Assembly: GCA_001784175.1 (NCBI GenBank)
Contig: MFPR01000026.1
Span: forward strand, 124,001 to 188,000
Source: Candidatus Lindowbacteria bacterium RIFCSPLOWO2_12_FULL_62_27
GTDB taxonomy: Bacteria; Lindowbacteria; 2-12-FULL-62-27
Direction: 5' to 3'
DNA length: 64,000 nucleotides
Positions within the stretch are counted from its first letter, which is position 1, and each line of letters begins with the position of its first letter. The notes under the pieces are model-generated. The model was not told where the DNA came from and searched no databases. It saw only the letters and a list, made by a program, of their open reading frames with translations. This document shows, in pieces, positions 3,277-59,420 of the stretch. Position numbers and translations under genes: made by a program.

Positions 3277-3280
3277 GACG

Positions 3281-3895: not shown

Positions 3896-3911
3896 GATTT
3901 CGCCCCGACGG

Positions 3912-3940: not shown

Positions 3941-3947
3941 CGGCGGT

Positions 3948-4166: not shown

Positions 4167-4185
4167 GTCGGGAGGAGTTTGAGGC

Positions 4186-4563: not shown

Positions 4564-4567
4564 TGCG

Positions 4568-5407: not shown

Positions 5408-5428
5408 CATTTCAAGGAGGTTAAGAAC

Positions 5429-5728
5429 ATGGATTATCTGACAGGCTTGGCGCTGGCGCTTCCCATCGGGGTTGGGCTGGCGGGTATGGGTTGCGGGATT
5501 GGGCTTGGAAATGGCGTACGCGGCGCGATGGAAGCCATCGGCCGGCAGCCGGAGGCGGATGCGAAAATCCGGTTGACCATGATCATCGGCGCCGCCTTCA
5601 TCGAAGCGCTGACCATTTACGCGCTGGTGACGGTATTTTTATTCATGGCCACGATCACGGATAAGGCGAAAATGGATTTGGAGAAGGCTCAATCCGCCCC
5701 CGTGACGTCTTCCGCTCACGGTCAGTAA
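5429..5728 (+). CDS. atpE: F0F1 ATP synthase subunit c
   Basis: 99 residues forming the two-helix rotor subunit. The loop GRQPEA and the second helix [11 protein letters not shown] are diagnostic, and Glu59 is the proton-carrying carboxylate. The residue after it is Ala60, and the position equivalent to the Na+-binding Gln of the first helix is Leu26. Both argue for proton rather than sodium coupling. The gene has a strong AAGGAGG site (5414-5420) 8 bases before the ATG, unlike its neighbours, which fits the need for many copies per complex. A charged tail of about 20 residues after the second helix is slightly long. Confidence 0.95.
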
Positions 5729-5733
5729 CCGGC

Positions 5734-44216: not shown

Positions 44217-45248
44217 ATGGCAAGTCCCAAATTTTTGTTGCGCGATATGGAAATGCCCAGGGGTGTGCGGGTGGTTCGGGAAGAGGCCGGCGACTTTGGT
44301 CGCTATGAAATTCAGCCGCTTGAGCGCGGTTTCGGCACGACGTTCGGAAACAGCATCCGCAGGGTGTTGCTCTCGTCCATCGTCGGCGCCGCGCCCTTCG
44401 CGGTCAAAATCTCGACCAAGAGCGGCGCCGCACTGCACGAGTTTGCAACCCTCAAAGGCGTCGTCACGGATACGCTCGACATTCTCTTCAATCTGAAATC
44501 TCTGCGGCTCCGAATGGACCAGGACGGCGTCGTGGTACTGAAGGCCGAAAAGTCGGGACCGGCGAAAATTCTCGGCAAGGACCTCGTGCCGGAGGACCGG
44601 TCCGTCGAAATTCTAAACGAGGATATGTTGATCGCCGAGGTCTCCGAGGGCGGACAGCTCAAGATCGAAATACAGACGCAACTCGGTCGCGGCTATGTGC
44701 CGGCCGAAAATCTCGACCGCAAGCTCGAGCCGGGATGGATCGCCATCGACAGCATCTACAGCCCGGTCGACCGCGTCAACTTCGAGGTCGAAAATACTCG
44801 CGTCGGGCAGATCACCGATTACGACAAGCTCATCATGGAAATCTGGACCGACGGCAGCATCACCCCCCGCGACGCGCTCGCGCACGCCGCCAAGGTCATC
44901 AAGGAGCACATGCAGCCGTTCATCAATTTCGAGGAGGAGGAGAAGATCCTCGATGAGGAAATCGAGCTGACGCCGGAGGAGAAGCAGCTTCAGAAAATTC
45001 TCTCCGTCAGCATCGAGGAACTTGAGCTGTCGGTCCGGTCCTACAACTGCTTGAAGAGCGCCAACATCCACGCGCTCGGAGAGCTTGCGACCAAAACCGA
45101 GGCCGAACTGCTGAAAACTAGAAACTTCGGACGCAAGTCCCTCATGGAAATCAAGGACAAGCTCCAGCAATACAACTTGGAACTCGGCATGAAGGGTGTC
45201 TCGCACCTCCTCGTCAAATCCCAGACGGCGGAAACGGTCGAAGCATGA
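44217..45248 (+). CDS. rpoA: RNA polymerase alpha subunit
   Basis: 343 residues with the N-terminal assembly domain ([28 protein letters not shown], about residues 27-54; PWYAV-type strands vary), a linker rich in Glu, and the C-terminal domain ([41 protein letters not shown]) that contacts promoters and activators. AAGGAGGAG precedes the ATG. It overlaps rplQ by 4 bases. Confidence 0.97.
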
Positions 45249-45595
45249 AGCATGGCAGGAAACTCGCCAAACTCGGCCGGCCGCGGGCGCTGCGCAAGGC
45301 GCTCCTCCGGGGCCTTGCCACCTCGCTCTTCAAGCACGGCCGCATCACGACCACACTGCCCAAGGCCAAGGGCCTCCGCCCGTACGCCGAACGGCTCCTG
45401 ACCCACGCGCGGCGCGGTACACTCCACGCGCGCCGCCTCGTCCGACGCGCGATTTCGGACCGCATTGTCCTCGCCAAACTCTTTAATGAGATCGCACCGA
45501 AATACAAGGAACGAAACGGCGGCTACACCCGCATCCTCCGCATCCAAAATCGCCTCGGAGACAACGCCACACAAGCCATCATAGAACTCGTTTAG
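45245..45595 (+). CDS. rplQ: 50S ribosomal protein L17
   Basis: 116 residues. [39 protein letters not shown] and the C-terminal [17 protein letters not shown] match L17. Last gene of the ribosomal superoperon. The mobile element starts 62 bases after it, beyond the tRNA-Leu gene. Confidence 0.95.
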
Positions 45596-45614
45596 ATTTG
45601 TAAGTCTCTAGAAC

Positions 45615-45699
45615 TGCCGGGAGGGAGATTTGAACTCCCACGAGGTTGCCCCCGCCAGCCCCTCAAGCTGGTGCGTCTGCCAAATTCCGCCATCCCGGC
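45615..45699 (-). tRNA. tRNA-Leu (anticodon GAG), rebuilt by the mobile element
   Basis: 85 bases on the minus strand: acceptor GCCGGGA/TCCCGGC, discriminator A, anticodon stem CCAGC/GCTGG around TTGAGGG (anticodon GAG), a long variable arm as in leucine tRNAs, and T-arm GGGAG-TTCAAAT-CTCCC. No encoded CCA. Positions 1-42 (from the 5' end through the anticodon loop) are within the 44-bp repeat shared with the right end of the element. Positions 43-85 are chromosomal. The promoter now upstream belongs to the element. Confidence 0.93.
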
Positions 45700-45701
45700 G
45701 C
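45658..45701. repeat. Left attachment repeat (att)
   Basis: 44 bp identical to 59320-59363. It covers the 5' half of tRNA-Leu including the anticodon loop plus two bases upstream of the tRNA. Identity stops at 45657 inside the anticodon stem, placing the crossover at or near the anticodon loop. Confidence 0.93.
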
Positions 45702-45717
45702 GGTAGAAACTCAAAGC

Positions 45718-45745
45718 ATTATACACGGTCTACGTCTTTTCACAA
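45718..45745 (-). promoter_or_regulatory. Element-borne promoter driving tRNA-Leu
   Basis: On the minus strand TTGTGA (45745-45740), 16 bases, then a perfect TATAAT (45723-45718), about 18 bases before the tRNA 5' end. It lies inside the element. Its -35 box includes the stop codon of the integrase gene. Confidence 0.7.
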
Positions 45746-46942
45746 ACCGGCTTGATGCAAATTTGATGGAAGTTTCTGCGCCCGCAATCTATCCAAGTAG
45801 TCATCAAATTTCACCATGTCCTCCTTCATCGTCGTATCATGAATCACGTAATAGCGGCTGGTAACGTCTTTCTTTCTTCGTCCATGTCCGAGGATGGAAC
45901 GTAGAACCAGCTCCCGACCACCAGCGTTAGCGAAGCACGTTGCAAACGTGTGGCGGAAATCGTGCGTTCGGTAATTGAACTCCTCCGGGTTCATCGCCGC
46001 CCTGATGATTGCAGGCTCGAAAATATGCCGCCCCTTTTTCAGCATCTCGTGATAACGATAGTCGAACGTATCATAACTCCCGTAGTTCTGTCCTCGGTCG
46101 TTCGTGACTACGAATTCGGACATACTGATTACCTTACCCGACAGATAGGGTTCAAGATGGCGTGAAATCGGGACAATCCGATTGCTTCCCCATTTCGGCT
46201 GTCTTGTGCTGGTGTTGTGTGGGTCGCCCCGCTTGTTCATCCACTGCCCTGCGATTCGAAGACAATTGTTCTTCCTATCGACGTACCTCCATTTCAGACC
46301 GAATGATTCACCCAGTCTCAGTCCCGCGAAACAACCAAGCGCAATGACCAACTTCGTAGGTAGTGGAGGCAAATCCAAATCGAGCAGTGCGAACAATTCG
46401 CTGGGCAGTAGCGCAACGTCGACGTAATCGTTCGTCTGCAAGCGTCCGTGCAATGTCACAGGATTGACCCGTGCCGCGTTTTCTCGGATTGCAAGTTTGA
46501 AAGCTAAACCGAGAGCCGTGAGATAGCCGTTGATCGTTGATGGCATCCTCCCTTTTTTCAAAAGAGACTCGACAAATCGTGCCACGTGCTCTTTTGTATC
46601 AATGACTGCCACTGGTTCGTTCCTCCCGAAAAACTCGGCGGCCTCGCTCAAGCTATGAATGTTGCTCTGCGCCACCACCGGATGAAGTTTTCCAGCGGCA
46701 ACCCTTCCGTCCCTCTCCTCCTTGAAAGGCTTCATCAGTTCCGACCACGTCATCCGACGAAAAGGTTCAGACCCGTGCAATTCAATGGTGCGAAGTCGGA
46801 CAAGAAAGTCCTGAAGATATCGTTCCGCCTGCCGTCGGTCGGCGCATCCCGTCGAATGATACGACCAGCGACCTCGTAATGGATGTCGATAGTAAATATG
46901 GTATGTCCCGCCTTTTCCACGCTTGCAAAGTTTCGCCCTCAT
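45740..46942 (-). CDS. int: Tyrosine-family integrase (left end)
   Basis: 400 residues. An N-terminal arm/core-binding region (residues ~1-175) precedes the catalytic domain with Arg209 (AGLRLGES), His327-X2-Arg330 (THDFRHTFAT), His353 (LGHGRRKKD) and the nucleophile Tyr364 or Tyr365. The gene ends next to the att core, the classical place for the integrase that acts on it. It starts one base after the excisionase-like gene. Its last codons overlap a repeat (45752-45776) that recurs at the right end and may be an arm-type binding site. Confidence 0.93.
   Translation of the reverse strand: MRAKLCKRGKGGTYHIYYRHPLRGRWSYHSTGCADRRQAERYLQDFLVRLRTIELHGSEPFRRMTWSELMKPFKEERDGRVAAGKLHPVVAQSNIHSLSEAAEFFGRNEPVAVIDTKEHVARFVESLLKKGRMPSTINGYLTALGLAFKLAIRENAARVNPVTLHGRLQTNDYVDVALLPSELFALLDLDLPPLPTKLVIALGCFAGLRLGESFGLKWRYVDRKNNCLRIAGQWMNKRGDPHNTSTRQPKWGSNRIVPISRHLEPYLSGKVISMSEFVVTNDRGQNYGSYDTFDYRYHEMLKKGRHIFEPAIIRAAMNPEEFNYRTHDFRHTFATCFANAGGRELVLRSILGHGRRKKDVTSRYYVIHDTTMKEDMVKFDDYLDRLRAQKLPSNLHQAGL
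45752..45776. repeat. Candidate integrase arm site, left
   Basis: 25 bases starting TTGATGCAAA and containing TTGATG twice. It matches 22 of 25 bases at 59169-59193 in the same orientation. Both copies are inside the element, near its ends. Confidence 0.55.
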
Positions 46943-46943
46943 C

Positions 46944-47429
46944 TCACGCCGCCTCTCTGAGCGTCGGTCGAAGGGTTCGGCGGCCCTTTGTCATCAAGCC
47001 ATCAATCCAACTGTTGATATCGGTCAGCCGAAAGCGGACAAAATTGCCGATGTGGAAATTCGGGATATAGTTCTTGGATACCCATCCCTGAATAGTTCGG
47101 GGAGATACATTAAAGAATTTGGCAACTGTTTCCGTGTCCATGATGTCGGTGTCCACGTCGACCGAGTACCGCATTTGCTCGGCAGAAGCAAATCGACCAA
47201 CTGGATGTCTCTGATACCAACCGTTATCCGAAAGCGTTCGCACAACGCCTTTGAATTGAACGTCGTCGAGCGTATCACCCTGCACGCCCAGACGCCGCCA
47301 CGCATCGTCAACGTCCGCTTCGAATAAAAGAGCCGCCCTCGAATCCAATTTCTTGAACTCAAAAAACTCTTCGACATCGCGGCGGCTGTGTTCTACCGAA
47401 TTCTTTTCTTTCTCTTTTTTCTGAGACAT
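46944..47429 (-). CDS. Excisionase-like HTH protein
   Basis: 161 residues from ATG 47429 (AAGGTGGG upstream; GTG 47444 is also possible). The N-terminal half is charged and unrecognised. The C-terminal ~65 residues (TETVAKFFNVSPRTIQGWVSKNYIPNFHIGNFVRF, about residues 98-132) form a MerR-like winged helix typical of excisionases and small phage regulators. Its place immediately upstream of the integrase in the same transcript supports an excisionase (Xis) role. Confidence 0.75.
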   Translation of the reverse strand: MSQKKEKEKNSVEHSRRDVEEFFEFKKLDSRAALLFEADVDDAWRRLGVQGDTLDDVQFKGVVRTLSDNGWYQRHPVGRFASAEQMRYSVDVDTDIMDTETVAKFFNVSPRTIQGWVSKNYIPNFHIGNFVRFRLTDINSWIDGLMTKGRRTLRPTLREAA

Positions 47430-47580
47430 GCTCCCACCTTCCACCCCACGTATGTGGGTGTCGGTTGGAGATCGTCACTGCGAATAAAATTTATCGGCTC
47501 GCCCCGGCGTAACCGGGTTTCAAGCGCAGACCTCTTCGTTCCCGGCCACGCCGGGATTAAAATCTATTCCCTATTTCCCC
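47430..47580. other. Spacer with three hairpins upstream of the excisionase-like gene
   Basis: Three small inverted repeats: CCCAC/GTGGG near 47443-47456, CCCGG/CCGGG near 47503-47516, and a perfect TCCCGGC/GCCGGGA at 47540-47556. Spacing is irregular (about 59 and 38 bases). They could be operators or leader-RNA structures controlling xis and int. Confidence 0.5.
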
Positions 47581-48057
47581 CTACCCCACTCCCCTCGCCC
47601 GACCAAACGGCGTGAGCCATACCTCTCCGCTCTCCACGCACGTCGGTTTTGGCGTGGACGGCTGGATACTCTGGCATACCGTCTGCTCGCTTTCTTTCTG
47701 CGTTGTCGATGGCGGTATTTCCTTCCCCCACCGTTTTAGTGCTTTCATGCGATTCTGCTCTCGCCGTGCGTCTAGCTTCGCCTCCGCCTCCCGACACCGT
47801 TCGCCGAGATACCACTCCATTCCAGAGACGAGGATTCGCACCTGACCGCCTTGATGGTGGACGGGCAACGACTTCTCTCTATGCCATTTCTTCAAGCACG
47901 AAATACTCAGGCGGCAATACGTGGCGATTGCAATCCATCCGACCAACTCAGGCGGGCGGACATACCGCGTCTTGGGCACTGGCGGTTCTGGCCGCCTGAG
48001 TTTTCGGATGTCTCGTTTAATCTCCCGTAGTTCTTCGCGGGGCATTTTCTCAGTCAT
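47581..48057 (-). CDS. HTH DNA-binding protein
   Basis: 158 residues from ATG 48057. A charged N-terminus (MPREELREIKRDIRKLRRPEPP) precedes a winged-helix segment (ELVGWIAIATYCRLSISCLKKWHREKSLPVHHQGGQVRI, about residues 38-77) that resembles excisionase/small-terminase type HTH domains. A coiled, basic helix follows (EAEAKLDARREQNRMKALKRW) and a Ser/Thr/Pro tail. It could be a regulator or a replication accessory protein. No terminase large subunit is present, so a packaging role is unlikely. Confidence 0.65.
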   Translation of the reverse strand: MTEKMPREELREIKRDIRKLRRPEPPVPKTRYVRPPELVGWIAIATYCRLSISCLKKWHREKSLPVHHQGGQVRILVSGMEWYLGERCREAEAKLDARREQNRMKALKRWGKEIPPSTTQKESEQTVCQSIQPSTPKPTCVESGEVWLTPFGRARGVG

Positions 48058-48170
48058 TCTTGCCGCCACAAAATGAAGTCGAGCCTGAAGTCGACTTCCG
48101 TTCGGCGTGGGCGGGTGAAGTCGGCTTCGGCTCGGTCGGCGAGAGATGGAAGCGGGCGGGCATGTTCAAT

Positions 48171-49970
48171 CTACCAGCGACGTTTGTTGGTCTGTGCATT
48201 CCGAAGAGCATCCTTCTCGTCGTCGGTCAATTCTCGAAATTTCGCCTTGTCGCCTTCGAAATACAACTTCGTCTGACCGCCGGGATTGTTTCGAGACAGC
48301 ACCACACGCACGAGCGTCACAGGCGAGAGAATCTCCTGCGTGTCTTGATATTCGTTCTGATCGTCGTTGACCGTGATCCGACGGTGGAGAATAACGGCGG
48401 TGTCACAGTCTGTCGCCAGACTCGACGAGTCCCTCATGTCCTCAGCTTCGATGATTTTGTCGGCGTCGGTCTTTCGAGTCTGGACGATCACCATGATTGG
48501 TATGCCCAGTTCCATCGCCAAGAGTTTGAAATCCTTGCTTACCGCCCCCGTCTCCTGCGTGACATAGCGTGGATCACGGACGAGAAATTGAAGATTGTCG
48601 AAAACGACAAATTCTATTCCGTACCGTTTGACTGCGGCGCGAATTGTATTCATGACACCTTCGCGTGTTACTCCCAGCGTGTTGAATCCAAAATACAGCG
48701 GCACATCCACAAGCTCGGCTAAACATTGCGATGCTCGACGGTGGTCGATTTCGGATTCTGTGATCCCATATTCCATTTGAAGCGTGCGCTTCACCAAAGC
48801 CACGGGCGGCATTTCAAGACAGTAGACGAGAACGGGAACAGGCGGGTCTCTACGAACAAGATTCCACGCAATGTTGATGGTCATGGTTGTCTTGCCGACC
48901 TTTGGTTTCGCCGATACCATAATCACATCGCCAGCTTTCATTTTGCCCATGATGCGATTCACATTTTCCCACGGAGTTTCAAGACCAATGCCGTCACCAA
49001 CAATTGTGTTCTCCAGAACCTGCTCCATCGCTTGAGTGTGACTCACAATATTCTGGACTTCGGGTTGCTTGGCAGAGTCCAACAAATCGGACAGTTTGAT
49101 TCCCTTTTGCAGAGCCTCATTTGCATCGTTGATCCCGTCTGGGAAATTCACGATGAAGCATCGGGAGATGTCAAGACGGTCGGCGAGTTTCCCGACGGCC
49201 TTTCGACCCGGCGCATCGTTGTCATATGCGAGATAAATCTTTTTCATATCCTTGAGTTGATCGAGCCACTCTGCGGCGAATCCTTCGCACCCTGTCGTCG
49301 ACGACACAACACTTTTTACTCCGTTCTGCCACCATGACATCGCACAAAATTCGCCCTCCGCGATCACCACTGACTCACAATCTTCTTTCAGGGCTACATC
49401 GGCATGGAAAAGAATACTCTTGCATCCAGTGATTCGTCGAAAACGTGCCTCGGCGTCGGTAGCGATAATCCTCCGATATTTCACGTTGACCAATTTCTCG
49501 TCCTCAAAGTGTGGGATGGCGATCCACTCGTCGCCTTTGACATCTACCTCCAAGCCCAGCGCAAAATACGATATTGTTTCGTCGTTCAGCCCACGACTAT
49601 GAAGATAATCCATCCCTCGGCGAGAACTTGCCAATCTCTTCTGCGCCTCAGTGACATCAAACTTCGGCGTTACATACTTTACCCTGCCCGCGACATTCCC
49701 TACCGAAGCCACCTGTCCGTTTCTCCGGAATCTCTGTCCAAGCGTAATGAGGTTTCCCTTTTCGCCGCACACTTTGCAATCCCACTGTCCGTTTAAGCGA
49801 TTCATATACATTTTCCAGTTGGTATTTCCGCAAAACGGACACGTCTGGATCACGAATTGATCGCCTGTCCCACCTTTGTAATTGACCCCGTGCGTCCGAA
49901 GAAAATTTTCTGGTGTCTCGTTCACAACATTGTGCCGCAAATCTCTTGGCGCAGTTACCTCATTGCTCAT
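48171..49970 (-). CDS. Primase-helicase of phage T7 gp4/Twinkle type
   Basis: 599 residues combining three modules. A zinc ribbon (Cys44, Cys47, Cys65, Cys68) recognises primer sites. A TOPRIM primase core has Glu205 (VVIAEGEFCA) and the acidic DND at 250-252 (AYDNDAPGRKA). A RecA-type replicative helicase has Walker A AKPKVGKTT (Lys360) and Walker B VVFDNLQFL, followed by VIVQTRKTD. It would prime and unwind the element's own DNA, so the element can probably replicate after excision. It lies just downstream of the replication-initiation-like gene, with a 1-base gap. Confidence 0.92.
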   Translation of the reverse strand: MSNEVTAPRDLRHNVVNETPENFLRTHGVNYKGGTGDQFVIQTCPFCGNTNWKMYMNRLNGQWDCKVCGEKGNLITLGQRFRRNGQVASVGNVAGRVKYVTPKFDVTEAQKRLASSRRGMDYLHSRGLNDETISYFALGLEVDVKGDEWIAIPHFEDEKLVNVKYRRIIATDAEARFRRITGCKSILFHADVALKEDCESVVIAEGEFCAMSWWQNGVKSVVSSTTGCEGFAAEWLDQLKDMKKIYLAYDNDAPGRKAVGKLADRLDISRCFIVNFPDGINDANEALQKGIKLSDLLDSAKQPEVQNIVSHTQAMEQVLENTIVGDGIGLETPWENVNRIMGKMKAGDVIMVSAKPKVGKTTMTINIAWNLVRRDPPVPVLVYCLEMPPVALVKRTLQMEYGITESEIDHRRASQCLAELVDVPLYFGFNTLGVTREGVMNTIRAAVKRYGIEFVVFDNLQFLVRDPRYVTQETGAVSKDFKLLAMELGIPIMVIVQTRKTDADKIIEAEDMRDSSSLATDCDTAVILHRRITVNDDQNEYQDTQEILSPVTLVRVVLSRNNPGGQTKLYFEGDKAKFRELTDDEKDALRNAQTNKRRW

Positions 49971-49971
49971 A

Positions 49972-50925
49972 CTACCGCCCCCTCGCCGCCTCTTGGCGAT
50001 CTTTGTGAAGTTTTTTCAGTGCCAGTGCCTCAGCATCTGGCATTCTCGGCGGCCTTGAATTGCCGCCCACATATTTCTTTCCGGGGTCCCACCGATTGTT
50101 GTCCAGCCCACAGAGATGGTCTGGGTCAGATAAAAACCATTCCAATGATGTCTTGGGTTCTTTATTCAGAATGAAATCATTTGTCGCCATTCTAACGAAT
50201 AGTTCCCGCCATTCGGCAAGTGTGAGTCTCGCTATCCGCGCCGTGTCCAGACACTGTTTTCGTTTCGTTCGACCGATTCCAAATCGCGATGCCATCTTGG
50301 GCATGATTTCGTTCCATAAATCCTGCAAAATCCCCAAATCCGTTACGGGTCGCTTACCATCGTCCACGAAGTCGACTTCGCCAACCGGCGGCACACCTTG
50401 GGGTAGGTCGATTTTTATCTTTTCTCCAGAAGAGGGGGGTTCCAAAAAGTCGCCGTCCGACCGACGGTCATTCTCTTCTATACTATTCTCTTCTATTCTA
50501 TAGGGGGCTGACATCATGCTGACATCATGTATGACGCTGTCGTTGCCTTTGTTCTTTTTCCGATATTTTTTACTGGCTTCCCGCCAGTGTTGTCTCGTCG
50601 TTTTCCGACTTTCCAAGAAATCGTGATAAAAATCCCATTCCTCCCTCGGTAACCGAAAACGGTCACCATCTTTCTCCAAGAAGCCGACCTTGCCCATGTC
50701 TTCGAATATGCCCTGTAAGTCCATGGCAAATATTTCTCTCGCAAGAACTTCGAGGGACAATTCAGGCAAATATCCGGCATCGCTATTTTCGTTGAGCCAG
50801 TCGTGCAGAATGTGAACGAGCGCAAGTGATTCGAGCTTACTGATGCTACGAATCGTGGCAAGTTTCACTGTGCGGAGGTCATGGTCGAGTCCGTATCTGG
50901 ACGGACGCCAGTCATCGCGCTTCAT
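49972..50925 (-). CDS. Replication-initiation/replisome organiser-like protein
   Basis: 317 residues from ATG 50925, preceded by GGAGG at 5 bases. An N-terminal winged-helix-like region (residues ~10-110, with LALVHILHDWLNENSDAG and EFDMGKVGFLEKDGDRFRLP-like layout) is joined by a polar linker (residues ~130-195) to a C-terminal region with RFGIGRTKRKQCLDTARIARLT and TSLEWFLSDP. This layout and its position before the helicase resemble phage replisome organisers (DnaD/O type) that recruit helicase to an origin. The family assignment is by architecture and context only. Confidence 0.65.
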   Translation of the reverse strand: MKRDDWRPSRYGLDHDLRTVKLATIRSISKLESLALVHILHDWLNENSDAGYLPELSLEVLAREIFAMDLQGIFEDMGKVGFLEKDGDRFRLPREEWDFYHDFLESRKTTRQHWREASKKYRKKNKGNDSVIHDVSMMSAPYRIEENSIEENDRRSDGDFLEPPSSGEKIKIDLPQGVPPVGEVDFVDDGKRPVTDLGILQDLWNEIMPKMASRFGIGRTKRKQCLDTARIARLTLAEWRELFVRMATNDFILNKEPKTSLEWFLSDPDHLCGLDNNRWDPGKKYVGGNSRPPRMPDAEALALKKLHKDRQEAARGR

Positions 50926-51019
50926 ATTGACCTCCGTTACTTGCAGAGGGGACTCCACGACTCAGGTGGGTTGGTGCACTGAAAAATTCTACGAGATAAG
51001 GGGACACGTACCGCCGCAT
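50912..51019 (-). CDS. Short upstream ORF coupled to the replication gene
   Basis: 35 codons from ATG 51019 (AGGAG 10 bases upstream) to a TGA inside the first codons of the replication-initiation-like gene. It starts MRRYVSPYLVEFFSAPT. The 14-base overlap with the downstream start would couple translation. It is small and unrecognised, so it may be a leader ORF or chance. Confidence 0.35.
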   Translation of the reverse strand: MRRYVSPYLVEFFSAPTHLSRGVPSASNGGQYEAR

Positions 51020-51082
51020 GTAAATCACGCTCCTAAACCATATTGGTCGACTCCTTCTCCGATTTTTTGCTTCTTATCCCAC

Positions 51083-51133
51083 AAAAAACCCGGCTGTCTT
51101 GGGTGCTCACGACAAGGCGTGAGACAGCTCGGG
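51083..51133 (-). terminator. Attenuator-like terminator in the replication operon leader
   Basis: On the minus strand CCCGAGCTGTC (from 51133) pairs with GACAGCCGGG (to 51089) with one bulged base. An inner stem CTCACG/CGTGAG (51105-51110 and 51118-51123) sits in the loop, and six T follow (51088-51083). It lies between the candidate promoter and the first replication gene, so most transcripts would stop here unless antitermination occurs. Confidence 0.65.
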
Positions 51134-51194
51134 GTCAAGCATGAATTCTGAATTTGATCTTCGTGAACACCCTGTTTCTTTTGCTACGATCAGA

Positions 51195-51222
51195 GTGTTA
51201 CAAATCGAAGCGCGGTTGTCAA
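51195..51222 (-). promoter_or_regulatory. Candidate promoter of the replication/integration operon
   Basis: Minus strand TTGACA (51222-51217), 16 bases, then TAACAC (51200-51195). The -10 box is weak, so an activator may be needed. Next feature downstream is the attenuator-like hairpin. Confidence 0.45.
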
Positions 51223-51335
51223 TACAAATCAAAAAATATATTTTTGTAACCCCATGATATAGAATGACTTGACATTTTGAAAACGACTCCCTCGCCCTCG
51301 CCGCTCCCGCTCCCGCCTCGACCTCCTCCGCCGAG

Positions 51336-51369
51336 AAAAAAACAAGCGGGTCGTGTGAACCCGCTTGTT
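51336..51369 (-). terminator. Rho-independent terminator of the secreted-protein operon
   Basis: AACAAGCGGGT (51369-51359 on the minus strand) pairs perfectly with ACCCGCTTGTT (51351-51341) around a 7-base loop, and the stem runs into seven T (51342-51336). It lies 39 bases after the small zinc-motif ORF, ending the leftward transcript that comes from the cargo genes. Confidence 0.85.
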
Positions 51370-51407
51370 CCCATGCGCTGACAGGCGTTCGTTCCAATAT
51401 CTTACTA

Positions 51408-51506
51408 TCAAATTTTGTCAGCGAATAAAACCTCCGCAATCTGTGCCGTTCGCCGCCGCTTTTTTGTTTCGGCGCAGAACGGACATGTCTTCGTGTCGTC
51501 GCTCAT
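51408..51506 (-). CDS. Possible 32-residue zinc-motif peptide
   Basis: ATG 51506 overlaps the stop of the large secreted-protein gene (ATGA). The product begins MSDDTKTCPFCAETKKRRR and has one Cys-X2-Cys pair followed by a basic stretch. It looks like the first half of a zinc ribbon. Coupling and position before the terminator support it, but the size makes it uncertain. Confidence 0.4.
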   Translation of the reverse strand: MSDDTKTCPFCAETKKRRRTAQIAEVLFADKI

Positions 51507-54286
51507 CTCACGACCGCCAATTTTTCGACGAGCGTGTTCCCGCCGCTCTCCAGCTTGTAAATGTAGACACCAGAGCCTACCTTCTGCCCATTCTTGTCCG
51601 TCGTGTCCCATGTCAGATTATTTGTTCCCGCCGATCCTGACGCACTCAACTCTCGCACCAGCCGACCGCCAACGTCGAAGATTTTGATCGAAACGTCTGC
51701 GGCGGCGGGGAGGTTGAATTTAAACGTCACGATGTCAGTAGCCGGGTTGGGAAACGCAAACGACAGATCTCTTGAGAGTGGCGACGCCAGAAACGGAGCC
51801 AAGTATTCCGGAAGTCCGACCGCCAACGTCAATGCTGTTGCCGATGAGACCAGAGCCGAAGACGCCGTCCGCAAATTCACAGCCCCGCCCGACGTGCCCA
51901 GCAGGTACGCCTCATACTGCGTCGGCAGGTTCTGGACGTTGTCCCACGTCAGCGTCGTGACTCCCATATCCGAAGCGACCAGCACGTCCCACGTCTTGCC
52001 CGCCGTAATCGGTTCGGCATAGGACGCCGCCATCCATTCTTGTGTTCCTTGTGGTCGCACGGCGGTGGACACGTAGCCAGCGGCGACCGGCGGTGCTTCC
52101 AATGCTGACGCCGCCCGGCGTTCGCCCGGAGTCGACTTCACCCCAATATAATTTTGCCAGTCACTTAATCCGGCGGACGTGGCTATAAGTTGAACCGCCC
52201 ATTCGTTGTCCAGCGGCTGACCATATCCGGCGGACAAATATGCCGGAGCCTGATTGAGTATCTCCGTCGCATACGTCTCCGGACTCGTCGGATTTGGCAG
52301 GATGAACATCGTGCAGGATTGATTCGCCTTCACCCAGAATCCCACCATGGGCTTGAGTCCCATCGTGACCAACGACGGCGTCTCACTCGCCGGAGCGTAA
52401 ATGTAATTTGAGCCAGTATACCAGTAGACCTTATTCTGAATGGCATTCGATGCGCCCGCCTGCGCCGGTGTCAGCCTTTGGCTTTGCGGAAGCGCAGTAT
52501 CGTTAACGCCGGACGTGTCGAAGGTAACACCGGAGTCCCAGCTCACGTAGAAGTATTGTCCCGACGCCACCTGGTTCCACCCGACCCGTAAACGCACTTG
52601 CACCGTATCGGATGTGGCGAATCCATCCGAAGGGACGAACACACGCCCACCTGTTCCGTCCTTGACCCAGTAAGCACGACCACGGACTGCGTCGCCGCCG
52701 GGGACGGCATATTTTGTGCCGTTCAGACTCGAATTGTCCGCCGCATTGGCGTCCCACTCGTAAACCGTGGCGTTTGGTAAGCCGCCGGTCGTGCTTTTGA
52801 GATTCCATCCGGCCGGATTTTTATTTGCTCCAACCATGCGCCAGCCCAATCCCAATGTGTTCCCGCCTGCTGGCACGTCCCTACCGTCCGCATATACCGT
52901 AAACACGACCGACTTCGCCGGAGTCACGCTATCGTTTCTGGCTTCGACCCTATAGACTCCCGCCGCCGTGCCCAGTGTGAGCGTGTCCGTCGCATAGCCG
53001 GAGGCGTCCGTGTAGACCGTAGGAGACGAAAGACTCCCGGAGCCGTGCGTGACGGTGAACGTGACCCTTGCTCCCATCACACCGTTGCTCCCTCCGGTGT
53101 CGACCACACGGACGGTCAACGGCAATGCCGCCGACGGTGCGCCCAAGGCGTGATTACCGCTCACAATCACAATCGTGTCAGGCGGTGACGGAAGAACGAT
53201 GGGATTGATTCGGAACACATCGTCTGACGTGTCCGCCGTCGCCGCGTCCGTCGCGCTCACGATCCGAACTTTTGCTTGCGTCGTGTTCAGGTTCGGCACA
53301 GACCACACATACGATCCGGTATTCGTGGTGGACGCAACAATGCTCGACCAAGTCATGCCAGAATCGCTTGAATATTCCAGCCGCACCGTTGATATCGTCC
53401 CTGTATTTGACCACGTCACCGTCTCCGTCGTGCCCGCCTGAAACGAATCGCCGCTATTTGGTCGTGTGAGCGTGAACCCGCCACGAATGGCAAAATTCGC
53501 ATCAGACGTGTCGAACCCTACACCATCCGACACACGGGCACGAATGCCGGTAGCTATTGAATCCGGCACTGTCCACGCATAGCTCCCAGAGTTCGCCGTC
53601 GACGCTGTGATGACGTTCGGGAATGTGAATCCGCTATCGGTTGAATAGTCCAGACGGACGGAGGATATTGTTCCCGTCGATGTCCAAGTAACCGTCCGAG
53701 CATCACCGACCGTCCATATCTCCCCACCGTTCGGGGATGTGAGGCTGAATCCTCCGGCAATCCTGAAATTTGCATCCGACACATCAAGCACGTTGGCGTT
53801 CGCCGAATCCGATACACGGACACGAACGTATTGGCTGATTGAATCAGGGATGTTCCACGCAAAATTTCCGCTATTGGCGGTGTAGGAAATCAGATTCGGG
53901 AACGTCGAACCGCTATCCGTGCTGAATTCTATTTTCACGTTCCCGATACCGGACACCGTCGTCCACAATATATTTTTCGCCGTGCCAACGGCGAGAGTCT
54001 CCCCGCCGTTCGGTGATGCTATGGCAATCGTATCGTCGCCGAACCGTAGGTTATAGATGAAACCATTTTTGGAGACGAACGATGTGCTGGTCATCGTGTC
54101 TATTGCCGGTTGCCCAGCGGAGCCTAACAACCGAAAACTTAGTGATGAAATGCTGTCGCCGCCGTTATCATTGACGGAGACACGAATCTTGAAATTTGAT
54201 GAGGTCATCGACGAATATGACGAACTCGCCTGCACCAACAGAATGCAGATGATTAATGCCCTCTTGCATAAGTCCTGGAAGAACAA
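51503..54286 (-). CDS. Large secreted multi-domain beta-sandwich protein
   Basis: 927 residues with an N-terminal signal sequence (ALIICILLVQASSSYS). Three homologous ~88-residue Ig-like repeats lie at about 91-176, 184-267 and 275-360, each starting with a SPNGGE/RPNSGD-type motif and ending DTSDANFAI or similar. A bacterial Ig-like (Big) domain follows at about 370-465, then a large unrecognised region with GLGWRMVGANKNP and VGWNQV. The last ~80 residues (FAFPNPATDIVTFKFNLP, IKIFDVGGRLVREL, SGVYIYKLESGG) are an FlgD-like/type IX-sorting-like C-terminal domain. It is probably exported and attached to the surface or released. Such a protein is unexpected on a small replicating element. Co-transcribed with the gene upstream. 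Confidence 0.8.
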   Translation of the reverse strand: MFFQDLCKRALIICILLVQASSSYSSMTSSNFKIRVSVNDNGGDSISSLSFRLLGSAGQPAIDTMTSTSFVSKNGFIYNLRFGDDTIAIASPNGGETLAVGTAKNILWTTVSGIGNVKIEFSTDSGSTFPNLISYTANSGNFAWNIPDSISQYVRVRVSDSANANVLDVSDANFRIAGGFSLTSPNGGEIWTVGDARTVTWTSTGTISSVRLDYSTDSGFTFPNVITASTANSGSYAWTVPDSIATGIRARVSDGVGFDTSDANFAIRGGFTLTRPNSGDSFQAGTTETVTWSNTGTISTVRLEYSSDSGMTWSSIVASTTNTGSYVWSVPNLNTTQAKVRIVSATDAATADTSDDVFRINPIVLPSPPDTIVIVSGNHALGAPSAALPLTVRVVDTGGSNGVMGARVTFTVTHGSGSLSSPTVYTDASGYATDTLTLGTAAGVYRVEARNDSVTPAKSVVFTVYADGRDVPAGGNTLGLGWRMVGANKNPAGWNLKSTTGGLPNATVYEWDANAADNSSLNGTKYAVPGGDAVRGRAYWVKDGTGGRVFVPSDGFATSDTVQVRLRVGWNQVASGQYFYVSWDSGVTFDTSGVNDTALPQSQRLTPAQAGASNAIQNKVYWYTGSNYIYAPASETPSLVTMGLKPMVGFWVKANQSCTMFILPNPTSPETYATEILNQAPAYLSAGYGQPLDNEWAVQLIATSAGLSDWQNYIGVKSTPGERRAASALEAPPVAAGYVSTAVRPQGTQEWMAASYAEPITAGKTWDVLVASDMGVTTLTWDNVQNLPTQYEAYLLGTSGGAVNLRTASSALVSSATALTLAVGLPEYLAPFLASPLSRDLSFAFPNPATDIVTFKFNLPAAADVSIKIFDVGGRLVRELSASGSAGTNNLTWDTTDKNGQKVGSGVYIYKLESGGNTLVEKLAVVR

Positions 54287-54310
54287 TTTAGTGTGTATGG
54301 ACAGCCTCTA

Positions 54311-55441
54311 TTATTTGGATATCCAACATCGAAATGAGAATAAAGCAGTCCTAGGAGTGGCTGTGGCATCAGCGAATATATAATCCAATGAATTGGTCTG
54401 AGTCGTAGCGACAGTGAAGGTCTGCCTATCCATCCCGAAGTCGGATAGCCACTCTCTGTCATCAAGTTTATTCAACAGCGAATAATTATTCATTGACACG
54501 TACCACTCTGCGGCGGTTGGCAGTCTTCCCCCATACTTAACAAAACACGTATTCGTTGCGTTAAACCATGAATCTGTGCCCTCTTCGTCGGTCTGCATAC
54601 AACCTAACTGATAGCCAGCAGATTTTATGCTCGTAAAATTTACCGGACATATAATCTCCAGCAATGCTGTCGGATTTGTGACGCCGATCCCTACATAGGC
54701 TGAATCAGATGAAATCACAAAAGTGCCCGTTTGATTGGTAGCAGTAACATTGAACAATCCGATAGGATTTGATGTGCCCAATGTCATATTACCACTTGTA
54801 CTAACGAATGCCGTTGCCGTTACTGTGCCGCTCACGTCTAATGCAGTAGCCGGATTAAGCTTCCCAATGCCGACATTGCCGCTCTCTTTCACAGTCAATG
54901 CTGTGTCCTGCACGGTAAATGTGTCCCGGACTCTGACGTTGCCTGCCACATCCAGTTTCGCCCCCGGATTGGACGTGCCTATACCGACCTTGCCGCTCAA
55001 TGTCGCTGTCTCCGCCACCGTGAACGCACCGGATGCTTGTGCGGAGCCAGCCAAAAATGCGGCGGTGTCCGCATAAAGAGCATACGGCGAGGACATCAGT
55101 CTCCGGCGTGGTGTCATTTCCGCATCACCGGCGACGGTAATGCCAAGCCAATACTGGGTATCAAACGGCAACGACAACGCCGTCACACTTCCAAGCTCCA
55201 CGTCGAAGACGCCGCTTGTGACGGACACCGATGACTGCGCTTCGGTCCACAACGCCGACCCGCCGGACGGGACGTTATACAACTTGAAAGTCATCGCATA
55301 CGTTCCTGTCAGGCGTGCGCCGACGGAATCAGTAAGCTGACCCTGAAATGAAATCAGGCGTGGTGCGGATGCGGTTGCAGATATAGCAAGCGACATCGTC
55401 AGGAATAAAAAAATTGAACCGATTCTGCTGGTTTTAGTCAT
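54311..55441 (-). CDS. Secreted fibre-like protein with C-type-lectin-like end
   Basis: 376 residues with a signal peptide (IFLFLTMSLAISATASA). Residues ~27-125 form a beta domain (LISFQGQLTDSVGARLTGTY). Residues ~150-262 contain repeats of the VGIGTSNPGAKLDVAG type (near 152, 190 and 250) known from beta-helical tail fibres and secreted proteins of Bacteroidetes-like bacteria. The C-terminal ~110 residues have paired cysteines (265, 281, 299, 373), GGRLPTAAEWYVSM and a final FRC, which fits a C-type-lectin/formylglycine-enzyme-like fold used for ligand binding. GGAGGT precedes the ATG. Probably an adhesin or receptor-binding protein. Confidence 0.75.
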   Translation of the reverse strand: MTKTSRIGSIFLFLTMSLAISATASAPRLISFQGQLTDSVGARLTGTYAMTFKLYNVPSGGSALWTEAQSSVSVTSGVFDVELGSVTALSLPFDTQYWLGITVAGDAEMTPRRRLMSSPYALYADTAAFLAGSAQASGAFTVAETATLSGKVGIGTSNPGAKLDVAGNVRVRDTFTVQDTALTVKESGNVGIGKLNPATALDVSGTVTATAFVSTSGNMTLGTSNPIGLFNVTATNQTGTFVISSDSAYVGIGVTNPTALLEIICPVNFTSIKSAGYQLGCMQTDEEGTDSWFNATNTCFVKYGGRLPTAAEWYVSMNNYSLLNKLDDREWLSDFGMDRQTFTVATTQTNSLDYIFADATATPRTALFSFRCWISK

Positions 55442-55487
55442 GTCTGATACCTCCGAGTTTTAATTTTTGTTGCGTGGCGTCACGCCC

Positions 55488-56030
55488 CTATCTATTTGAA
55501 TAAAAATAGATGTCAGCGTTTGTATGCAACCCAATGCACTTCCGCAAGGATTCGGCAGGTGCAGAACGGCTCCCTTGCCCTCCGCGAAAGACTCCTCTTA
55601 TTCCCCACTCCACTTTTTTCCTGCCTTTGATATTTTTCAGTTCGGGATTGACCAATAAGGATTGTCGGATTAGAAATTTCTCAAGCTTTCTTATATGTGT
55701 CTCATTTATTCGTCCTTGCTTTTTCGGGGATGTCAAAATGAAAAGTACGGGGGTTCCCTTACGTTCGGCAATTATCGGAGCGATAAAACGAACTATATTA
55801 CGGTCATTCAACGCTTCGTCTTTAAAAGTTCTCAGAGTCATTCCCACGTAATACGGCGTCAGTCCTTTTGTTCGAATGGCGAAAACATAACAGCCTTTTC
55901 TCCCTGCGATATCCTTACGACCTGCCCAAAAAAGTTCCCTTGTCGTATCGGTCATTCCCCGCGTCTTCTTATCTAAGGGAATCTCAAAGGGTCCATGAAC
56001 ATCGAACATTGTTATGCGGGTGTTTGACAT
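55488..56030 (-). CDS. GIY-YIG nuclease-like protein
   Basis: 180 residues from ATG 56030, the first start that leads directly to family-like sequence (the frame is open to 56204 but that part is non-conserved and overlaps structured DNA). GCYVFAIR at 46-53 and YYVGMT at 60-65 correspond to the GIY...YIG strands, Arg67 to the conserved catalytic arginine, and Glu117 (RKLEKFLIRQ) to the metal-binding glutamate. Such domains occur in homing endonucleases, restriction enzymes and repair nucleases. Here it could protect the element or act on competitor DNA. Confidence 0.7.
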   Translation of the reverse strand: MSNTRITMFDVHGPFEIPLDKKTRGMTDTTRELFWAGRKDIAGRKGCYVFAIRTKGLTPYYVGMTLRTFKDEALNDRNIVRFIAPIIAERKGTPVLFILTSPKKQGRINETHIRKLEKFLIRQSLLVNPELKNIKGRKKVEWGIRGVFRGGQGSRSAPAESLRKCIGLHTNADIYFYSNR

Positions 56031-56419
56031 TTTTCTCAGGTGGGTCTGCGACAAATCCCGGCTTGTTTCCATGCCCTGCCTCCGACAAAAAAGGGACGAG
56101 GATGCCGTCCAGTTTTGTGTCACCAGCGAGGTTGCACAGACAGGACTCCCTTTCGGGATGTTGGCATCTCCGCCCCACACATAGTCGATGTGGAGACAGA
56201 GCATTCCTGTCCGTGCATAAAAACATTATGGTCGCTGGTGACACCTCTGCGGCACAAAGCCGCAACGCCCACATCTTCGCACACCTCGCCCTGTGCGGCA
56301 AGGTCGGATTTTCGTCGGGGGCGGGAGAGGACACTATGTGCGGGCGGCGCGGATCGCCGTCGACCCCCGCCACGGCGTGGAAAACGCCATCCACGGAGGC
56401 GGCTGGGGCTGGCGAACAG
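56031..56419. other. Non-coding, highly structured stretch upstream of the GIY-YIG gene
   Basis: No convincing gene on either strand. Nested inverted repeats dominate: GTGTCACCAGCGA (56117-56129) with its complement at 56232-56244, inside it TGCACAGACAGGA against TCCTGTCCGTGCA (12 of 13 pairs, the odd pair becoming G-U in minus-strand RNA), and inner CCACA/TGTGG. Beside these are TGCGGC/GCCGCA around 56247-56263 and GGCGT/ACGCC near 56375-56389. This suggests a folded RNA of 130 bases or more, or a replication origin. Confidence 0.55.
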
Positions 56420-56689
56420 TCAGAGAATCAAAAAACTGTTGTGCTCTATGTCGAGCCGATGTACATCATGTTTGGATAGTGTGTTCCCCTGCGAGATGTA
56501 TAGACGGTCACCGCACTGTGGGTTGCCCTTTTCAGGCGAGCGGGGTTGTTTTGACCCGCTCGATTTTTTTCCCCACTCGCCGCCGTAGTCGACCTTCATC
56601 GAGCGCAAGACCGCCACGTCTTTCGGCGTTTCGGGCGTGAGGATTTTGAATTCCCTCCCATCCTCCGCGATGATTATTGTTTCTCTCAT
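56420..56689 (-). CDS. Hypothetical small protein
   Basis: About 89 residues from ATG 56689. It starts MRETIIIAEDGREFKILTPE, a plausible small beta domain, while the second half is rich in Ser/Gly/Lys and overlaps a plus-strand terminator-like hairpin, so the true C-terminus may be shorter or frameshifted. No family recognised. It follows the upstream small gene with a short overlap region. Confidence 0.45.
   Translation of the reverse strand: MRETIIIAEDGREFKILTPETPKDVAVLRSMKVDYGGEWGKKSSGSKQPRSPEKGNPQCGDRLYISQGNTLSKHDVHRLDIEHNSFLIL
56537..56570 (+). terminator. Plus-strand terminator-like hairpin inside the element
   Basis: CGAGCGGG (56537-56544) pairs with CCCGCTCG (56555-56562) and is followed by ATTTTTTT (seven T, 56564-56570) on the plus strand. 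All recognised element genes run the other way, so it would end an antisense or non-coding transcript coming from the structured region at 56.1-56.4 kb. Confidence 0.6.
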
Positions 56690-56694
56690 GGCTC

Positions 56695-57012
56695 TCACCA
56701 CTTCGGCGATTCGCCACGCTCCTCCATTTGCTTCCCCACCAATTCATACTCGTCCCATTCTTTCGACCAAGTTGCTTTGATCTTCCCAAGTTCGACCAAG
56801 TCCGCACAGGACGCAAGCTCAGCCAAACGTCTGACAAAGCCGCCCCCATACTTATGCATGGCGGCGATTGTCCATCGGCGGCGTTCGAATTCTTCATCGC
56901 GTTCTTTCATTTTACGTCGCCTCATCCGTGCAACAATCCGAAGCCAATTCTTGTTGACAGGGTCGGCGTCGATGTTGATGATTTTCTCGTCGTCGCTCGC
57001 ATCGTCGCTCAA
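56695..57012 (-). CDS. Hypothetical charged helical protein
   Basis: 105 residues from TTG 57012, which overlaps the stop of the upstream gene (TTGA). The protein is acidic at first (SDDASDDEKIINIDAD) and then strongly basic and helical (RIVARMRRRKMKERDEEFERRRW). No family recognised. The length and overlap suggest a translated gene of the accessory block. Confidence 0.55.
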   Translation of the reverse strand: MSDDASDDEKIINIDADPVNKNWLRIVARMRRRKMKERDEEFERRRWTIAAMHKYGGGFVRRLAELASCADLVELGKIKATWSKEWDEYELVGKQMEERGESPKW

Positions 57013-57428
57013 TCGGCTTCGTCCGCCTTGAAAATGGTTATCACGGGTTCGAGATTGTCCCCACCGTGGCACTGCGCCCGAAGCAGAACCGGGACCGGCG
57101 GCTTGTTCGGCGTCATTACGAAGAGCGGTGCGATCCTCACAATGTCCGTCGATCCCGACGCCGATTTGATTGCGTATCGCAAAATCGTCAGCATGTCCCA
57201 GCATCGTCCGACCGTGTCAGTTTCTGGGATATCATTTCGTTCGAGGACATCGTGCCACACGGCTGATGTCACGCAGAGCGAAAATTTTATCCCGACCTCA
57301 CGCGCCAACTCGGATATGTCGAGAAGTGTTCCATCCCGGATCGCGTCCGCCCGCGTGAAGGCATAGATGAGGTCCGACTCGTTGAATATTGACTCGGAGC
57401 GGACTGCTATCGTTTCTGTGTTAATCAA
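57009..57428 (-). CDS. DUF6573-like protein of mobile elements
   Basis: 139 residues from TTG 57428, with GGAGG 8 bases upstream. The core DLIYAFTRADAIRDGTLLDISELAREVGIKF and VTSAVWHDVLE resembles a small family often seen on plasmids and integrative elements (residues ~17-65). Function is unknown in the family. The assignment is from recognition of the pattern and should be verified. Confidence 0.6.
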   Translation of the reverse strand: MINTETIAVRSESIFNESDLIYAFTRADAIRDGTLLDISELAREVGIKFSLCVTSAVWHDVLERNDIPETDTVGRCWDMLTILRYAIKSASGSTDIVRIAPLFVMTPNKPPVPVLLRAQCHGGDNLEPVITIFKADEAD

Positions 57429-57444
57429 TCTGACCACCTCCAGT

Positions 57445-57762
57445 TTATTTCTCGTAGTTCCACGCTTGTGCCCGCCGCATGATGTCCCATACGGCGTGAT
57501 ATACCGCCGCTCGTTTTCCGTCGACGATGCTCGCCTTGAAGTTCCCATAGTCAATCGCTCTGATTCGTCTGGCGATTCCATCGGCTACCACGTCCTCATC
57601 GATGGACGCACGGAATGGATAATCAAATTTTGGAGTCTGCCTGACTCTGGCGGTTGGAAATATTCGACCGATGTCGCGGGGGAAGCGGCTTCTTACCAGC
57701 AAATTCTTTTTATTCGATTCATCTCGCACGATACTCAAAAAACTGTCCGCAAATATCCACAT
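57445..57762 (-). CDS. Hypothetical protein
   Basis: 105 residues, no family recognised. The C-terminal third (DGKRAAVYHAVWDIMRRAQAWNYEK) is helical with aromatic and basic residues. It lies between the RHH gene and the DUF6573-like gene, all facing left, in the element's accessory block. Confidence 0.5.
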   Translation of the reverse strand: MWIFADSFLSIVRDESNKKNLLVRSRFPRDIGRIFPTARVRQTPKFDYPFRASIDEDVVADGIARRIRAIDYGNFKASIVDGKRAAVYHAVWDIMRRAQAWNYEK

Positions 57763-57775
57763 GGCGTTTCTCCTG

Positions 57776-58006
57776 TCACTTCATTGGTCGCCCCACCTTT
57801 AACTCTCCCGTGCGTTTCTGGAATTTGCCACGTCGTTTCTTTTCCAAGCTGTCCACCGCCTCCGTAAGCGCACACTCTGTAAGTTCGGACAGCGTCAGCC
57901 CCGGCGTCCAGAACACGGCGTTCTTCACGCGGTCGATGATGTCGGTCGATACGTGGATCGTCAGGCGTTCTTTTTTCGGCTTCTCAGTCTTCGCGTTGGG
58001 CTTCAT
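57776..58006 (-). CDS. Ribbon-helix-helix regulator-like protein
   Basis: 76 residues. ERLTIHVSTDIIDRVKNAV forms a beta strand and helix, and LTLSELTECALTEAVDSLEKKR the second helix, as in ribbon-helix-helix DNA-binding dimers. The motif AVFWTPGLTLSEL and the end GELKVGRPMK resemble small plasmid and phage proteins, some linked to partition. It probably regulates the accessory genes or acts in segregation. Confidence 0.65.
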   Translation of the reverse strand: MKPNAKTEKPKKERLTIHVSTDIIDRVKNAVFWTPGLTLSELTECALTEAVDSLEKKRRGKFQKRTGELKVGRPMK

Positions 58007-58055
58007 GTCTTCTCCGTTATTTTCCTTACGATAATGCGTGTTTTGTTAAAGATAG

Positions 58056-59045
58056 TCATACGCTCGCCGCCACAAGACTGGCTACATCCCCAGCCAAGTC
58101 CGTGCGGTTATCGTCGTAGGCATATAGTGTCCGAACATCCTTATGCCGCGAAAATCTTTGTACAGCCCTGACATTCCCGTTCGTCAAATCCAGCGCGGTC
58201 GTAATAGCTTCGTGCCTGACGCCGTGTGGTCGGACTCGCACACCTGCTTTATCTCCCAACTCTCGTATAACCAGATACAGCCCCGTTCCTGTTATACGAT
58301 TGCCCTTTCCCGTTCCACCATGAATTAAATTGGTGAACAGTGCCCCCGGCTCTGGACCACGGACATCAAGCCACGCTTGAACAGCCAACTTGGTTTTGTC
58401 AGGTAGTGTCAGATTCAATTTTTGTGTCTGTCCTTTTCCGAGCACGGCAATTGTCCCGGCGTTCGTGTCCACGTCGTCCACGTCCAACGACACGATCTCG
58501 CCCCGTCGAAGACCAAGTCCATGCAGGAGTCGCAGAATCGCACGGTCACGAATGCCTTTCCTGTCATTACGGTTCTCCAACTTCAACAAAAGAGACCTCA
58601 CACCTTCCCTGCCGGGGCCACGGGTGTCACGATATTTTTCTGCTTTCAGGTTCTCGACCTCCAGCCGCCACTGGACGATGCCCAGAGTAGACGCCAGCTT
58701 CACCAGAGACCGCAAAGCCGCCAGCCGTCGATTGATGGTCGTCGCTTGGAGACCCTTCTGGATCAGGTCGGATTTGTATGCAAGAGCCAGACCGTTCGCC
58801 TCGCCGTTCCCACGTGACAATAGAAGCCGTGCGGCATCGTCCAGCGTTCCCGAACCGACAAACGACCGGAAGCCTTCAAGGTCTTGGCGGTATGCTCGGA
58901 TCGTCCGCTCGTTTCTGCCCGACAAGAAGGCGGAGACCAGAGCGGCGGCGTCTGTGCGGCGGGTTGCTATAAAGGTGAAGTTGGCTTCCTGTGGGGTGAT
59001 GGTGGTTGGTTCTGATTTAACGAGCGTTGCGGTAACCATGACCAT
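58056..59045 (-). CDS. Second tyrosine recombinase (XerC/D-like)
   Basis: 329 residues with an N-terminal SAM-like core-binding domain (NERTIRAYRQDLEGFRSFVG, INRRLAALRSLVKLA) and a catalytic domain carrying Arg180 (LGLRRGEI), His274-X2-Arg277 (RPHGVRHEA), His301 (SRHKDVRTLYAY) and nucleophile Tyr310. It differs clearly from the integrase at the left end. It may resolve dimers, invert or move part of the element, or be left from a second insertion. Confidence 0.9.
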   Translation of the reverse strand: MVMVTATLVKSEPTTITPQEANFTFIATRRTDAAALVSAFLSGRNERTIRAYRQDLEGFRSFVGSGTLDDAARLLLSRGNGEANGLALAYKSDLIQKGLQATTINRRLAALRSLVKLASTLGIVQWRLEVENLKAEKYRDTRGPGREGVRSLLLKLENRNDRKGIRDRAILRLLHGLGLRRGEIVSLDVDDVDTNAGTIAVLGKGQTQKLNLTLPDKTKLAVQAWLDVRGPEPGALFTNLIHGGTGKGNRITGTGLYLVIRELGDKAGVRVRPHGVRHEAITTALDLTNGNVRAVQRFSRHKDVRTLYAYDDNRTDLAGDVASLVAASV

Positions 59046-59319
59046 CTATATAGTAACAAAAGGGAACGTTTATGTCAAAAGGGGGTGCTTTCAGGGCTGT
59101 TTGAGAGTCAAGGCGTTAGAATATTTGTTTCCCATGCACTCGGTAGACGCCTACAAGCCCTCGAAAATTTGATGCAAAGTTGATGGAGATTTCGGACGAA
59201 ACGGACGGTAGACAGGTGCGGATAGAAGGTATGCGGTTGCGGATTGACCTGATTGACAGTCAGGCGGTTAGGTTGGGATGCCTGTGCAAATTAAGGAGTA
59301 ATGAAAAATGCCGTTCTTC
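59046..59319. other. Right-end non-coding arm of the element
   Basis: 274 bases between the second recombinase and the right att repeat with no gene that can be supported. It holds the arm-site candidate at 59169-59193. Its minus strand there reads PSTLHQ in the frame matching the left integrase C-terminus (PSNLHQ), so it might be a relic of an integrase 3' end. Confidence 0.55.
59169..59193. repeat. Candidate integrase arm site, right
   Basis: Matches 22 of 25 bases with 45752-45776 in the same orientation, 127 bases inside the right att repeat. The left copy is 51 bases inside its repeat. Confidence 0.55.
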
Positions 59320-59363
59320 GCCCCTCAAGCTGGTGCGTCTGCCAAATTCCGCCATCCCGGCGC
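59320..59363. repeat. Right attachment repeat with orphan 5' half of tRNA-Leu
   Basis: 44 bp identical to 45658-45701. Read on the minus strand it is the tRNA-Leu 5' half from the acceptor to just past the anticodon loop, then diverges into element sequence, so no complete tRNA can be made from it. Confidence 0.93.
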
Positions 59364-59392
59364 CATGGGCGGCGCGCCAATTCGATACTCCA

Positions 59393-59420
59393 TATATAAG
59401 GACATCACGCCCAAAGTCAA
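59393..59420 (-). promoter_or_regulatory. Ancestral tRNA-Leu promoter, now orphaned
   Basis: Minus strand TTGACT (59420-59415), 16 bases, then TATATA (59398-59393), about 30 bases upstream of the tRNA 5' half. It is chromosomal sequence just outside the right att repeat and would now transcribe only a half tRNA into the element. Confidence 0.55.

Follow-up and report, generated by a model that had tools for sequence, protein, structure and literature searches.

What transcribes a host tRNA gene once a mobile element has entered it from the 5' side? When an element integrates at the 3' side, the host promoter keeps control of the gene; one that integrates at the 5' side has to supply the transcription of the tRNA itself. 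The question is raised by tRNA-Leu(GAG) in the window, the whole 64,000-nt stretch of Lindowbacteria DNA analysed here, which is part of a 190,535-bp contig in a 4.39-Mb genome. An initial annotation had placed an element on the 5' side of this gene and claimed that it had replaced the tRNA promoter. Comparison within the phylum covered three genomes, the window's own (G000) and the relatives G001 and G002.

An element on the 5' side of tRNA-Leu(GAG)

The left end of the element is the intact tRNA-Leu(GAG) identified by ARAGORN (45615-45699, minus strand) and the right end is an orphan 5' half in the same orientation. They share an exact 44-bp direct repeat made up of tRNA nucleotides 1-42 and 2 nt upstream, which forms the attL core (45658-45701) and the attR core (59320-59363), both on the minus strand and spaced 13,662 bp apart. 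The attR copy is the sole additional copy of this core genome-wide. The 7-nt anticodon loop TTGAGGG lies inside the repeat and identity ends two bases into the 3' stem; the initial annotation had given the repeat as the 5' half of the tRNA up to the anticodon loop. The element (about 13.7 kb) is thus located upstream of the gene, and what has been displaced is the 5' end of the tRNA; the presence of a 5'-side element in tRNA-Leu(GAG) is confirmed. ARAGORN finds no other tRNA gene within 45702-59363.

A feature absent from the initial annotation marks both ends. The 19-bp motif TTGATGCAAAKTTGATGGA occurs in the 64-kb window only at 45752-45770 and 59169-59187 (plus strand; 0.01 matches expected), about 50 bp from the left core and about 130 bp from the right one. 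It looks like an integrase arm-type site, one for each end of the element.

The tyrosine integrase gene int (45740-46942, minus; 400 aa; Pfam PF00589; phrog_1, 1.3e-43) is an intact reading frame whose stop lies 40 nt before tRNA-Leu(GAG) on the same strand. It is followed, all on the minus strand, by an HTH_17 or excisionase (Xis)-like protein (46944-47444, profile matches), a second HTH protein (47581-48069, weak excisionase or regulator match), a primase-helicase with Toprim and DnaB domains (48171-49970), a possible replication initiator (49972-50958, weak PHROG match), a large secreted cargo protein with a C-terminal sorting domain (51503-54286; Por_Secre_tail, Big_1), a tail-fibre-like or adhesive fibre-like protein (54311-55441, profile matches) and a second, Xer-like tyrosine recombinase adjoining attR (58056-59045, profile matches). 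An integrase beside att, a part of the tRNA repeated at both ends and an intact tRNA at one of them are the marks of a tRNA-targeting tyrosine-integrase element. The 13.7-kb segment would accordingly be an integrative element, with int as the putative enzyme of excision and integration. No close relatives of int were found among the genome contigs or viral contigs searched; its matches in phages, plasmids and other phyla are weak and partial (about 22-31% identity), and the attP core was not found in viral contigs.

To the right of 59363 lies a porin-YVTN-efflux cluster, beginning with a porin-like gene (59506-60975, plus). Since this cluster is collinear with a G001 contig at 66-79% nucleotide identity, the right flank is chromosomal, and, provided that the repeats are att sites, the sequence from 59364 onward is what lay upstream of the tRNA before integration. 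In G001 the cluster is likewise chromosomal, yet it has no tRNA beside it. Similarity of the attR flank to the DNA preceding the G001 porin stayed within the range of shuffled sequences, and no homology is claimed there. Taken at the sequence level, the repeat, the arm-type sites and the chromosomal right flank support the earlier view that the DNA upstream of the rebuilt tRNA is element-derived; the tRNA would then combine an element 5' half with a chromosomal 3' half.

Candidate old and new tRNA promoters

A -35/-10 weight matrix, with 43 other tRNA genes of the same genome as its training set, was used to score candidate promoters; p values are against shuffles. The element-borne candidate (45718-45745, minus) consists of TTGTGA (45745-45740), 16 nt and a perfect TATAAT (45723-45718), and lies 18 nt before the tRNA. 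The last three bases of its -35 hexamer are the int stop codon. These positions are as the initial annotation had them, and the site ranks 5th of 44 (p 0.0055). A second candidate, which that annotation lacked, faces the orphan half from the displaced flank: the putative native promoter (59393-59420, minus), with TTGACT (59420-59415), 16 nt and TATATA (59398-59393), is 31 nt before the orphan 5' half and ranks 9th of 44 (p 0.003). By this matrix, both outscore most host tRNA promoters. The displaced native promoter now aims into the element, within 59045-59420, toward the second recombinase (58056-59045), which has a TTGACA-17-TACTAT site of its own just upstream of its start. Judged from sequence, one tRNA promoter has taken the place of another, and the intact tRNA-Leu is now probably read from the element-carried promoter.

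The same arrangement is seen at an unrelated element in tRNA-Thr. On contig C27 of the window's genome an integrase gene ends 36 nt before tRNA-Thr(CGT), with TTGCCG-15-TATAAT between them (p 0.0015); integrase end, promoter and tRNA all recur in G002. Aligned without gaps, the two are 96-97% identical up to the tRNA and 100% within it, and over the three stretches that follow identity drops to 33%, 30% and 21%. These genomes belong to different genera, and a conserved operon is only about 75% identical between them. Because identity is 96-97% up to tRNA-Thr and the sequences are unrelated just after it, the upstream DNA, promoter and 5' half included, travels with the element, the downstream DNA being host-specific. 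In G001 a related integrase and TTGCCG-15-TGTTAT precede tRNA-Thr(GGT). C27 also carries, near the tRNA-Thr 5'-side integrase, an array of 28 tRNA genes that covers most isotypes and has a divergent Leu-GAG among them (G000:C27, L115, 1563-5297). The block surrounding this array, at about 1071-7629 and with an SPFH-like and an HNH gene, is missing from an otherwise 93% identical G002 stretch.

We propose, with a probability of about 0.82, that an integrative element carrying the tRNA 5' half in its attP recombined at tRNA-Leu(GAG), rebuilt the tRNA, displaced the native promoter and supplies its own. The tyrosine integrase would have recombined attP with the chromosomal gene, the crossover presumably falling in the anticodon-loop region. 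As attP would carry an exact copy of the 5' half, integration would rebuild the tRNA from an element 5' half and a host 3' half, and would displace the 5' half of the host gene, native promoter included, to the far end of the element. The sigma70-type promoter over the int stop would most likely transcribe the rebuilt tRNA without int expression.

A close precedent is pTN3 of Thermococcus, which has 41 bp in common with tRNA-Leu and parts the rebuilt tRNA from its original promoter (PMC5495485). The pTN3/TKV4-type elements of Thermococcales likewise carry about 41 bp of the tRNA-Leu 5' half, rebuild an intact tRNA and leave it cut off from the original promoter (PMC5495485, PMC8371274). They differ in being archaeal and in splitting the integrase gene on integration, whereas the window element has a bacterial host, an intact int of 400 aa and a separate promoter over the int stop.

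These archaeal elements bear on the alternative that survives best, in which 5'-side insertion is correct but most of the tRNA comes from read-through of the integrase operon, with a TATAAT that is minor or inactive. In pTN3-like elements the integrase promoter is said to drive the tRNA (PMC8371274); here int is directly upstream on the shared strand, with no terminator-like site found to separate it from tRNA-Leu(GAG). Against this, the element promoter is among the best-scoring tRNA promoters of the genome, and the Thr element, which is unrelated, keeps a promoter-like site in the same place in three genomes. We regard predominant read-through as unlikely.

Whichever transcript dominates, the initial annotation went further and made expression of the host tRNA dependent on the element. 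Its claims of 5'-side entry and promoter replacement are well supported in sequence by the repeat, the arm-type sites, the flank, the two promoter-like sites and the Thr junction; dependence of tRNA-Leu expression on the element is inferred. The genome has another, divergent tRNA-Leu(GAG), the one in the C27 array. Excision, if precise, would bring the native promoter back, and the tRNA would be left without a promoter only through imprecise loss of the element, so the element would not be strictly addictive. In the tRNA-dependent lysogeny of actinobacteriophages the host likewise relies on the element for a tRNA after integration, but the common core is short, no host tRNA is rebuilt and the phage brings a complete cognate tRNA of its own (PMC10865867). 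The window element instead rebuilds the tRNA through its 44-bp core and supplies only the 5' half and the promoter.

The tRNA-Leu locus in two relatives

The window tRNA-Leu(GAG) is identical to that of G001 (87 nt) and 99% identical to that of G002. It lies near rplQ in all three genomes, convergent with it in the window, co-directional and adjoining in G002, and co-directional about 7 kb off in G001 (regions: window 45245-45699; L024 5566-6101; L025 8360-15758). The comparison with an empty site that the initial annotation had called for found no true empty site among the three phylum genomes; the neighbours of tRNA-Leu differ in each. The G002 tRNA comes after rplQ on the shared strand, and its upstream DNA contains no related sequence.

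In G001, tRNA-Leu adjoins nuoA and no int gene is present beside it. Its upstream DNA nevertheless matches the element side of the window with a score of 56, the best of 9,670 windows and higher than any of 20,000 shuffles (maximum 47), and scores 19, no match, against the displaced side. The match is in frame with the final int codons and stop (LP-SNLHQAGL* versus IPYRNFHQASL*) and ends there; the distance from stop to tRNA is nearly kept (40 nt in the window, 38 nt in G001). The G001 promoter-like site is weaker by the matrix (p 0.06). No relative of the window integrase was found in G001, nor was a 5'-half tRNA fragment found between rplQ and the tRNA.

This locus provides the support for a different history, in which the tRNA promoter region upstream of 45701 is ancestral to the host, and a partial duplication, or another recombination that joined the right flank, produced the 44-bp repeat. 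The initial annotation had named a relative without the element, with chromosomal sequence to the right of 45701, as the case that would count against it, and on its face G001 goes part of the way, with homologous upstream DNA and int absent. However, ancestral upstream DNA leaves four features unaccounted for: (i) the exact 5'-half repeat; (ii) the arm-type repeat at both ends; (iii) an integrase 40 nt from the tRNA; (iv) the promoter-like site on the displaced flank. The G001 match itself behaves as expected of a relic: it keeps the reading frame of int through the final codons and the stop, and goes no further. We consider an ancestral promoter improbable. The G001 stretch is most likely either a relic of a related, lost element or the source of a captured promoter. 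We read it as a relic, in which case a related element was once there and its promoter end stayed; alternatively, a Lindowbacterial tRNA promoter may have been captured into attP. Under either, a promoter end would be common to an element and an element-free tRNA.

That a short repeat joined unrelated contig parts during assembly is barely credible: both relatives are metagenome-assembled, but the window junctions are internal to a 190-kb contig, flanked on either side by chromosomal genes, and each has an arm-type site next to it.

Side of entry in Lindowbacteria and elsewhere

Entry from the 5' side is a known kind of integration and a rare one, with pTN3 and the Islander database as precedents. 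Islander lists a 5' tDNA fragment in 159 of 3919 islands (PMC4383910), and in these, as here, the tRNA 5' end is displaced and the island is on the 5' side. That paper has no discussion of promoters (PMC4383910); no member with the window integrase was found in the present analysis. The SIT layout, in which the integrase gene precedes the tRNA on a shared strand, matches the gene order and orientation in the window; SIT and OD layouts together make up under 8% of 1273 pairs, in a study of integrase regulation rather than of the source of the tRNA promoter (PMC2951348).

In this phylum, 14 integrase-family matches crossed with 75 tRNA matches gave six tRNA-adjacent integrases. Four of the six precede the tRNA (Leu, Thr, Tyr, Val) and two face its 3' end (Arg, Pro); the tRNA-Arg(CCT) element is a regular 3'-side one with a 101-bp repeat (G000:C9, L168, 9093-9193 and 17130-17205). 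Set against the 8% background, 4/6 has a binomial probability near 5e-4, or near 4e-3 if the Thr/Arg pair is counted once and unfavourably (3/5). Insertion at the 5' side is shown only for Leu, by the repeat, and for Thr, by comparison; for Tyr and Val it is read from gene order. Displaced fragments of the Tyr, Val, Thr and Pro integrases were absent from the sequence examined, and the Tyr promoter-like site is weak by the matrix (p 0.2). tRNA-Val(CAC) exists as two identical copies (G000:C27:77048-77121 and G000:C37:123106-123179), one with the integrase just upstream; a half-tRNA fragment of it was not found. In other phyla, 12 more distant integrases lie no more than 200 nt from a tRNA or tmRNA gene, and one of them is on the 5' side (G214, tRNA-Ser). 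There (G214:C127, L074, 2988-3079) the integrase, a relative of the window integrase at 26% identity, has a reading frame that extends into the 5' half of tRNA-Ser(GCT), with its stop inside the tRNA gene. Rare elsewhere, 5'-side entry looks common in Lindowbacteria.

A single clade of 5'-entry integrases is not supported by the tree (5 label changes, compared with 6.1 when shuffled). The sister of the Thr 5'-side group is, with full support, the Arg 3'-side integrase, so the side of entry switches within one clade. Entry side therefore seems to be set by which half of the tRNA attP carries, rather than by enzyme family. This would fit a crossover within the near-palindromic anticodon stem-loop.

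It is possible, at a little under even odds, that 5'-side entry into tRNA genes is the habit of Lindowbacteria elements, which then seize tRNA transcription with a compact promoter over the int stop, that this promoter can outlive the element, as at the G001 tRNA-Leu, and that tRNA promoters are replaced in this way over time. A separate promoter over the int stop, with old and new promoters both visible and the arrangement recurring in one phylum, was not found described in the searched literature. The case suggests how an element meets the need for tRNA transcription without int being kept on, and points to a phylum where a rare side of entry appears common. It is now testable whether integrated elements rewrite the regulation of host tRNAs, and whether selection acts against their loss through random deletion, in contrast to precise excision.
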